Source: Shouchella patagoniensis (GTDB lineage: Bacteria > Bacillota > Bacilli > Bacillales > Bacillaceae_D). Taken from it: a stretch of DNA of 64,000 bases. The number at the start of each line of letters is the position of its first letter. Position 1 is the stretch's first letter. Below are positions 47,346 to 59,030 of the stretch, one piece after another. The DNA lies in the NCBI RefSeq assembly GCF_002019705.1, contig NZ_KV917377.1, positions 990,565 through 1,054,564 on the forward strand. The letters are read 5' to 3'. The position numbers and the translations under genes were made by a program. The notes beneath the pieces are model-generated. The model did not search any database and was not told the DNA's origin. It worked only from the letters and a program-made list of their open reading frames with translations.

Positions 47346-49232
47346 CTACGCCCTTTTTTGTTTCCTTGGAAGCATTTTAACGAGCGTATCCGCTACGTTT
47401 TCAGGTGTTAACCCAATCTCTTCATAAAGTTCACCAACACTTCCATGTTCGATAAACCAATCTGGAATACCTAAACGCTTAATTTCTACTTGCAGACTGC
47501 TTTCATTATAAAATTCCATAACTGCACTTCCAAAACCGCCTTGTAGCACCGATTCTTCAATTGTTAAGATCGGGGTCCCTTCTTCAGCTACTTTTTTAAG
47601 CATCTCTTCATCAAGTGGTTTAACAGAATTGGCATTGATTAAACGAATTGAGTGACCTGCTTGATTTAAACGTTCAATTGCTTTTTCAGCAACTGGAATC
47701 ATTGTACCAAAGGTTAAAATCGTGGCATCATTTCCGTCTTGTAAAACTTCCCACTTTCCAATTGGCAATTGTTTTAAGCTTTGGTCCATTTTTACGCCTG
47801 TCCCATTGCCTCGAGGATATCTGACAGCAATTGGTCCATCATCATATTTAATTGCTGTATAGAGCATATGCTGCAATTCATTTTCATTACGCGGATTCAA
47901 AATAACCATATTCGGTAATGCACGTAAAAACGAAATATCAAACACACCTTGATGTGTTTCGCCATCTGCTCCCACTAAACCAGCGCGATCAATCGCAATT
48001 AATACATTGAGGTTCTGACGACAGATATCGTGCACAACTTGGTCATATCCACGTTGTAAAAATGTTGAGTATACAGCATACACTGGTTTCATTCCTTGCG
48101 TCGCAAGACCAGCCGACATCGTAGCTGCATGCTGTTCTGCAATCCCAACATCAATCATTCGATCAGGGAACTCTTTAGCAAACAAATCCAATTTTGAACC
48201 ACCTGGCATAGCTGGTGTTACAGCCACCAAGCGCTCATCTTCTCTCGCAATCGTTCTAAGCGTATTTGCAAAGACGCTTGGATAACTTGGAGGCCCTGCT
48301 TTTTTAACCATCTCGCCGCTTTCAATTTTATAAGGTCCGGTACCATGCCATGCTCCTGTTGCATCTTCTTCTGCTGGTTTATATCCTTTTCCTTTTTTCG
48401 TAATGACATGAACGAGAACTGGACCGTTCGTTTTCTTTGCATAATTTAAATTTTGCTTTAAATCATCAAGATCATGTCCATCTACTGGACCTAAGTAAGT
48501 AAAGCCCATCTCCTCAAAAAAGATGCCTGATACGACCATATACTTCAAGCTGTCTTTTAAACGTTCTGCTGTATCTGCCAATTTCCCTCCAAAAGCAGGG
48601 ATTTTCCGAAGCAATTGTTCCATTTCATCTTTTGCCTTTTGATACTTTCCAGCAGTCCGCAATCTGCCTAATATACTATGAAGCGCACCGACATTTGGCG
48701 CAATCGACATTTCGTTATCATTAAGGACAACAATTAAATTCTTTTGTTCGTGACCAATGTGATTTAACGCTTCTAATGCCATTCCCCCGGTAAGTGCCCC
48801 GTCTCCAATAATGGCTACGACACTCTCATCCGTCCCTTTTAAATCTCTAGCAGTCGCCATTCCCATCGCTCCAGAAAGGGATGTAGAGCTGTGACCGGTT
48901 TCCCAAACATCGTGTACGCTTTCATTACGCTTCGGGAACCCACAAAGCCCTTTATACTGGCGTAATGTATCAAACTGAGATGCACGACCCGTCAAAATTT
49001 TATGAACATATGCCTGATGACCAACATCCCATAAAAACTTGTCTTTTGGACTATCAAATAACTGATGCAAAACTAAAGTTAGTTCTACTACGCCTAAATT
49101 CGGCCCAATATGGCCGCCACTAACCGAAAGCTTTTCAATCAAGAATTGTCGAATATCAACAGCCAATTCTTCAAGCTGTTTATTCGAATAGTTCTTCAAG
49201 AAACTCGGATTATGGATTTCTTCAAGGTTCAT
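47346..49232 (-). CDS. dxs: 1-deoxy-D-xylulose-5-phosphate synthase
   Basis: About 628 residues from the ATG at 49232, giving [13 protein letters not shown], which aligns with the normal N-terminus; the frame is open five codons further. It condenses pyruvate and glyceraldehyde 3-phosphate with thiamine diphosphate, the entry to the MEP isoprenoid route. Motifs: [15 protein letters not shown], thiamine site [17 protein letters not shown], and the C-terminal [16 protein letters not shown] terminator separates it from upstream ispA. Confidence 0.97.
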
Positions 49233-58379: not shown

Positions 58380-58769
58380 TTAAGATGGAAGCAATGCCAA
58401 AATCATTTCTATAACTGCTTTAATAATTGGGATTGCAAGTACAAGTATAAAAATCTTTCCTGCTAACTCGATTTTGGAGGCGATTGCTCCTTGTCCGGCA
58501 TCCTTCGCAATTTGTGAGCCAAACTCTGCAATATAAGCGATTCCTATTATCTTTAAAATTGTTTGAAGATAGACCATGTGGATATTCGCACTTTCTGCTA
58601 GTTCGCTAATCAGTCCTATAATCGATGCAATCTCATCAATTAAAAACAAAAAAATGAGAGAACCGACAAACATAGTTAACAAAAAAGCAAAAGCAGGTTT
58701 TTGTTCTTTTAAGACAAGTGCTAAGAAAGTGGCGATTAACCCAAGCCCTACTAATTGAACAATTTCAAT
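58380..58769 (-). CDS. spoIIIAD: Stage III sporulation protein AD, apparently with an ATT start codon
   Basis: 129 residues if started at the ATT at 58769; conventional starts give only about 100 residues (TTG 58688 or ATG 58682... in-frame ATG at 58673-58682) and would drop the conserved first helix. The frame from the ATT reads (M)EIVQLVGLGLIATFLALVLK, matching the N-terminus of B. subtilis SpoIIIAD (133 residues). GGAGG lies nine bases before the ATT; the codon upstream in frame is GCG, GCT, then TGA, so no ATG/GTG/TTG is available. Three to four membrane helices; AC/AD are small channel subunits. Confidence 0.88.
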   Translation of the reverse strand: MEIVQLVGLGLIATFLALVLKEQKPAFAFLLTMFVGSLIFLFLIDEIASIIGLISELAESANIHMVYLQTILKIIGIAYIAEFGSQIAKDAGQGAIASKIELAGKIFILVLAIPIIKAVIEMILALLPS

Positions 58770-58789
58770 CGCAGCTCACCTCCATCTTT

Positions 58790-58996
58790 TTACGCCTGAA
58801 ATAAAAACACACTTCTTATTTTTTGGAATAGATCATCTACAATCGTAGCAACCATATATAATACAACGACAAAACCAATCAAGGTCACCCAATGAGCCCA
58901 GTCTTCTTTTCCCATCTGTTTCAACACTGTATGGAGCATGGCTACAACAATGCCTATCCCAGCAATTTGAAATATGGTGTTTACATCATAAGCCAC
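58790..58996 (-). CDS. spoIIIAC: Stage III sporulation protein AC
   Basis: 68 residues from GTG 58996, eight bases after GGGGAG; this equals the usual length, while the open frame to 59020 adds eight basic residues. Two membrane helices, with IFQIAGIGIVVAMLHTVLKQ and ATIVDDLFQKIRSVFLFQ conserved. Small channel subunit paired with AD. Confidence 0.94.
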   Translation of the reverse strand: MAYDVNTIFQIAGIGIVVAMLHTVLKQMGKEDWAHWVTLIGFVVVLYMVATIVDDLFQKIRSVFLFQA

Positions 58997-59030
58997 CTTC
59001 ACCACTCCCCGTTTTCTCACTTCTGTGTGT

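Follow-up and report, generated by a model that had tools for sequence, protein, structure and literature searches.

An AUU or AUC codon as the probable start of the sporulation gene spoIIIAD in Shouchella and many other spore-forming Bacillales

The sporulation gene spoIIIAD of Shouchella patagoniensis is almost certainly initiated at an ATT codon (AUU in the mRNA) located at positions 58767-58769 on the minus strand of the window, that is, the whole stretch of 64,000 nucleotides analysed here. The first-pass annotation had proposed this codon as the start, and the proposal is borne out by the position of the codon, its conservation, the spacing of the Shine-Dalgarno sequence and the presence of a canonical start at the very same codon in outgroup genomes. 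Thus, as judged from comparative sequence data, the gene combines an N-terminus free of canonical start codons, a first codon that is kept and aligns with the start of the outgroups, and a strong, well-spaced Shine-Dalgarno sequence. The whole account that we put forward, namely an AUU-initiated spoIIIAD translated at a low rate by ribosomes supplied by spoIIIAC, resulting in a low and steady supply of the subunit, has in our estimation a probability of roughly 0.85.

The coding sequence extends on the minus strand over 58380-58769 from the ATT to a TAA stop and comprises 129 codons plus the stop codon. Its product scores 123.6 bits with the NCBIfam model TIGR02849 (cut-off 85.6) and 111.3 bits with the Pfam model PF06686, and it is the single spoIIIAD match in the whole genome. 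The gene upstream matches TIGR02848 (spoIIIAC), and the downstream gene was called spoIIIAE from its place; spoIIIAD is therefore identified both by a family model score above the cut-off and by its position between spoIIIAC and spoIIIAE. The minus-strand frame reads TGA (58778-58776) GCT GCG ATT (58769-58767) GAA ATT GTT CAA and translates as IEIVQLVGLGLIATFLALVLKEQKP. The TGA that closes the frame lies two codons ahead of the ATT and within the extended Shine-Dalgarno sequence GGAGGTGA (58776-58783, minus strand), and from this stop to codon 30 the frame contains no ATG, GTG or TTG. The GGAGG motif (58783-58779) is located nine bases ahead of the ATT. Both the motif at this distance and the lack of an in-frame ATG, GTG or TTG ahead of the conserved N-terminus, as stated in the first-pass annotation, were read again in the window. 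The calculated energy of the Shine-Dalgarno duplex is -16.1 kcal/mol, which among the listed starts of the operon is second to that of spoIIIAG (-16.5). The adjoining spoIIIAC gene (58790-58996, minus strand, with further in-frame GTG codons at 59002 and 59020) ends with a TAA at 58792-58790, leaving a gap of 20 nucleotides to the ATT. When the window was searched for open frames of at least 80 codons in which a Shine-Dalgarno-like motif precedes ATT, ATC, ATA or CTG, nine other candidates emerged, seven of which have an ordinary start one to five codons further on; the remaining two are those at 48025 (plus strand) and 61051 (minus strand).

When the start codon was read in an alignment with relatives, the check proposed at the outset, the ATT pattern was matched in 13 of 13 Shouchella genomes and proved widespread in the order. 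Eleven of the 13 have an intact frame without a canonical start at codons -1 to -4, while in G002 a GTG occupies -1 and in G006, a draft, the frame is broken. The nearest named relatives of the window's genome are Bacillus sp. JCM 19041, Shouchella xiaoxiensis and S. clausii; in the first of these, a draft assembly (L003/L032), the frame is disrupted within the first spoIIIAD codons. For the wider survey, 241 genomes of the order Bacillales were matched, and loci came from the best matches listed with their places, with 140 regions fetched overall. spoIIIAD was read in 244 loci, which were reduced to 200 distinct contexts, nearly all from the order of the window, by removal of 39 sequence duplicates and of five loci with late-starting alignments (L003, L032, L083, L100 and L162). 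Among the matches listed, 133 of the 200 contexts lack an ATG, GTG or TTG at codon 1 or at -1 to -4, and codon 1 in these non-canonical contexts is ATT in 105 cases, ATC in 26, ATA in one and ACG in one. ATT was read, for example, in Alkalihalophilus pseudofirmus OF4 (L045) and Halalkalibacterium halodurans (L060). The remainder have a canonical codon either at -1 to -4 (38 contexts) or at codon 1 (29 contexts, with 22 ATG and 7 TTG). At least one non-canonical context occurs in 30 of the 42 labelled families, and in 20 families all contexts read are of this kind. Moreover, 84 of the 133 contain an in-frame stop at -2 to -6. Since the sampling leans towards close relatives and ATG is found in those members of the more diverged families f2, f6 and f13 that were sampled, the proportion of 133 in 200 may be higher than that in the order as a whole. 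The ATT as a trait of spoIIIAD is thus confirmed; the feature is, however, not confined to this genome and is wider than had been supposed. Its retention across the genus and across families indicates that the start of spoIIIAD is a real and old feature. At a threshold of E 0.001, SpoIIIAD was not matched in eight of 249 genomes from the order (G107, G166, G171, G191, G234, G241, G255 and G277); four of these belong to genus g62 and two to g104, and they are perhaps non-sporulating or diverged.

The choice among the isoleucine codons is uneven. ATA was observed once at codon 1, against 19.2 expected from the internal isoleucine codons, and ATT is preferred over ATC and ATA at codon 1 relative to codon 3 (38 versus 12 discordant loci, p = 0.0003, kinship ignored). 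When each family was represented by a single locus (30 families, with all named records counted as one more), ATT was found in 22 of 31 against an expectation of 17.0 (sd 2.7), a weak excess. The 26 loci with ATC imply that AUU as such is not required. In family f10 (among its loci L140, L224, L225, L229 and L232-L236), ATC is the sole available start in nine of nine contexts.

As an outgroup set, 20 genomes from outside the order (three from the same class and 17 from the phylum) were picked from 207 genomes with a match. An ATG, GTG or TTG is located exactly at codon 1 in 19 of the 20, and the twentieth has an ATG at -1. Because the outgroups begin canonically at the same codon, AUU or AUC apparently took the place of an ordinary start, and the outgroup comparison makes it seem that the change went in this direction and belongs to this order. 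On a poorly resolved spoIIIAD tree (192 rows, 126 columns) the start label changes 22 times, compared with 56.5 times in shuffles; at least 10 of the 22 changes sit on supported branches of this tree, which cannot tell gain from loss. These repeated changes, together with the contexts bearing a canonical codon (29 at codon 1 and 38 at -1 to -4), indicate that AUU is not indispensable. In one genome from elsewhere in the phylum, a TAG interrupts the spoIIIAD match (G434:C218:25429-25731).

Ahead of codon 1, the Gs at -13 and -10, which belong to the extended Shine-Dalgarno sequence, are present in 133 of 133 non-canonical loci and in 17 of the 29 loci with a canonical codon 1. The distance from the spoIIIAC stop to codon 1 has a median of 14 nucleotides in 128 non-canonical loci, the stop not being found in five others. 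Two genes served as controls. In spoIIIAC, a canonical start lies no more than 14 codons from the motif in all 193 loci evaluated, with seven others left aside. In infC, a gene with an AUU or AUA start, ATT was read in all 30 loci, and in two of these a canonical codon is additionally present at -1 to -4. In the genome of the window, infC (L290) likewise starts with ATT, behind TGGAGGTGG. The triplet directly before the spoIIIAD start (58770-58772 in the window) resembles GCN in many families: of 84 reduced loci, 73% have C at -2 and 62% have G at -3. This coding-like trace sits oddly with an untranslated spacer and counts against the present account.

With regard to the mechanism, we propose that spoIIIAD is initiated with fMet at the AUU standing where the outgroups have AUG, GUG or UUG. 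The strong Shine-Dalgarno sequence at fixed spacing would recruit the 30S subunit, while the poor pairing of AUU with the initiator tRNA would hold initiation low. Such a rate-limiting role of the codon appears rather probable, and weak translation of spoIIIAD would agree with reporter data from Staphylococcus aureus and Listeria monocytogenes. Ribosomes finishing spoIIIAC could reinitiate at spoIIIAD and would probably account for much of its initiation, as the gap is short (20 nucleotides here); given this distance, we consider the chances of a coupling between the two genes to be about even. The likely benefit, and the simplest use of such a start, would be a low and steady supply of this membrane subunit of the SpoIIIA export complex relative to its operon neighbours. 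In Bacillus subtilis, SpoIIIAD-myc co-purified with SpoIIIAG, the stoichiometry of the complex is called unknown, and the export complex is required for late forespore gene expression, as stated in the respective study (PMC2703783).

The rival that survives best accepts the AUU as the start and denies it a regulatory role. The strong Shine-Dalgarno sequence and the adjacent spoIIIAC would render the quality of the codon nearly neutral, so that it drifts between AUU, AUC, UUG, AUG and nearby canonical codons. The several start states and their repeated changes speak for this reading, as does the uniform ATC in the nine f10 loci. Moreover, compensation between start codon and Shine-Dalgarno sequence is absent once relatedness is corrected for. 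In 5 supported independent pairs (median p = 1), the lineages with canonical starts showed no weaker Shine-Dalgarno sequence; as a tuned output would predict a weaker one in these lineages, this result counts against tuning. The difference by start type without the correction is small (p = 0.035), and that between non-canonical and ATG loci (p = 0.0024) is carried mostly by Sporolactobacillus. A stronger Shine-Dalgarno sequence compensating for the weak codon was considered on the basis of 10 supported pairs (about 6 to 0) and rejected, since the effect was gone without the upstream-starting loci, whose Shine-Dalgarno sequence had been cut off. However, in S. aureus reporters non-canonical starts entail a roughly tenfold cost (PMC13009471), and at such a cost free drift should revert to AUG more often. 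The single ATA against 19.2 expected likewise argues against drift, which we regard as unlikely, though not negligibly so.

IF3, encoded by infC, discriminates against AUU starts; spoIIIAD, in contrast, is a gene of a sporulation operon without a known link of this kind. The AUU could nevertheless render spoIIIAD responsive to the level or activity of IF3 during sporulation, as is the case for infC. In favour of this reading, the infC genes of related genomes, that of the window's genome included, also start with ATT, and control of weak starts by IF3 is established for E. coli infC (cf. PMC13009471). A term search of a paper on translation in sporulation (PMC11339384), however, found neither infC nor IF3, and we consider this type of control improbable. 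Somewhat more doubtful still is a developmental gate, in which a masked AUU site would be served mainly by ribosomes from spoIIIAC, SpoIIIAD synthesis would increase when the discrimination by IF3 in the mother cell relaxes, and initiation would set the number of channel cores. If such a gate existed, the core number of the export channel would be fixed by translation initiation and not by transcription.

The remaining rivals concern the codon itself. A mechanical list of open reading frames places the start at the TTG of codon 30 (58680-58682, minus strand), the first canonical in-frame codon. Initiation there would give a protein of 100 residues and leave the upstream frame untranslated. This position gains some support from TIGR02849, which covers residues 27-127 only. 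The match is limited in the same way in relatives starting with ATG (L085, L087), and the N-terminal helix is therefore absent from the model; our guess is that truncated sequences may have been used to build TIGR02849, so that it begins at residue 27. The upstream codons, in turn, bear the marks of a protein: in eight Shouchella genomes pN/pS is 0.110 for codons 2-29 and 0.136 for codons 30-127, and residues Q5, V7, G8 and L16 are invariant in 28 SpoIIIAD sequences. Conservation of the protein is high starting at codon 1, and the stops and the Gs of the Shine-Dalgarno sequence precede this codon. Sequence comparison hence indicates that codons 2 onward are under coding constraint. This constraint, the Shine-Dalgarno sequence at fixed spacing and the outgroups beginning at codon 1 speak against codon 30, where a canonical codon is found in just 77 of the 133 non-canonical loci. 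An AlphaFold2 model of SpoIIIAD (mean pLDDT 88.9) predicts helices at residues 3-21, 25-60, 65-90 and 94-126; a search of solved structures with SpoIIIAD gave no match. The first of these helices (58707-58763, minus strand; block pLDDT 82-89) agrees with the membrane helix that had been postulated together with a conserved N-terminus, and according to the model a start at codon 30 would cost the protein this helix and part of the second. Initiation at codon 30 in place of the AUU is thus very unlikely.

Equally improbable is initiation one base downstream, at a UUG that overlaps the ATT in the +1 frame, followed by slippage of the ribosome or of the initiator tRNA back into frame. A TTG is indeed present there in 104 of the 133 non-canonical loci (58766-58768 in the window), a frequency that follows from codon 2 beginning with G. 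Against it, the other frames lack a canonical start from -6 to +6 in 25 of the 26 ATC loci, which nevertheless retain the gene. In the 104 loci with the TTG, the +1 frame is closed by a stop after a median of 6 codons. As a side aspect, the overlapping UUG could act as a decoy start that ends within few codons. Two neighbouring positions were considered as starts and rejected: the GCT and GCG codons (-2 and -1), as a stop occupies -2 in 22 of the 133 non-canonical loci, and the second ATT (codon 3), which would leave 15 bases after the GGAGG; codon 1 is therefore preferred. Finally, the notion that the ATT is in truth an ATG, GTG or TTG altered by faulty sequencing or assembly, which might appeal to the frame broken close by in the JCM 19041 draft (L003/L032), is refuted by the conservation of the same ATT in all 13 genus genomes and in many other families.

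In addition, the initiation region of f1, the family of the window, may fold into a hairpin. In most of its 39 loci the bases from -6 to +4 (candidate 5′ arm, 58766-58775, minus strand) can pair with codons 11-14 (candidate 3′ arm, 58729-58738, minus strand), with some compensating changes; the pair between -4 and the third nucleotide of codon 13, for example, is TA in 27 loci, GC in three, GT in two, TG in two and AT in one, and unpaired in four. The ten pairs are formed in 0.897 of the cells, compared with 0.874 (sd 0.008) in shuffled data; the observed value was reached by 2 of 500 shuffles, and pairing falls to 0.24-0.51 when the arms are slid. The minimum free energy in f1 is lower than in synonymous shuffles (-25.9 versus -20.5, p = 1.8e-8, kinship ignored), with pairing of codon 1 not clearly higher (0.87 versus 0.83, p = 0.075). 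In the window itself the hairpin is not significant (z = -0.55), as 56 of 200 dinucleotide shuffles and 22 of 40 synonymous shuffles (0.55) fold as well. Outside f1, the 57 non-canonical loci revealed no lowering of the energy (p = 0.71), whereas the 29 canonical loci do fold more stably than synonymous shuffles (p = 7.7e-5). Covariation of -1 with the third nucleotide of codon 12 was not seen in a reduced set of 103 loci (44 paired, 45.0 expected). As the effect is missing from the other non-canonical families and ATG-started members of f1 carry the hairpin too, it is not a general partner of AUU; we regard it as a lead towards coupling that stands outside the main claim.

To our knowledge, non-canonical starts that have been kept for long are few and are mostly those of infC, which shares with spoIIIAD a widely kept AUU and a GGAGG Shine-Dalgarno sequence. 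In E. coli, the AUU start of pcnB reportedly limits this gene; both gene and lineage are unrelated to the present case. Further close parallels are cvfC1 (AUU) and ccpN (AUA) of S. aureus, where, as in spoIIIAD, a conserved non-canonical start is combined with a strong extended Shine-Dalgarno sequence; these starts were mapped by Ribo-Ret and tested with reporters, whereas that of spoIIIAD was deduced from sequence. In the respective study (PMC13009471), reporters for cvfC1, ccpN and citZ-AUA reached about 10% of AUG in RPMI, and ccpN up to 30% in rich medium. Likewise, L. monocytogenes infC (ATT), rnhC (ATC) and four more genes have fixed non-canonical starts, as does spoIIIAD, and an rsbW reporter followed the order ATG > ATA > ATT (PMC13068326); this set was reported in one species, while the conservation in spoIIIAD covers many families. 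No report on the spoIIIAD start codon was found in an open-licence full-text library, and passages from PMC2703783, PMC3416734, PMC3533761, PMC7924749 and PMC4363619 contain nothing on it. Conserved AUU and AUC starts are thus already known (infC, cvfC1, ccpN, rnhC, pcnB), and it is the place of spoIIIAD among them that appears to be new.

Taken together, the non-canonical start of spoIIIAD spans many families of spore formers, while the outgroups keep ordinary starts. Programs that accept ATG, GTG and TTG only miss the first membrane helix of SpoIIIAD. The versions of the gene starting with AUU, AUC, UUG and AUG constitute a natural experiment on the reasons for keeping a weak start, and the start codon makes one aspect of SpoIIIA stoichiometry accessible to experiment.
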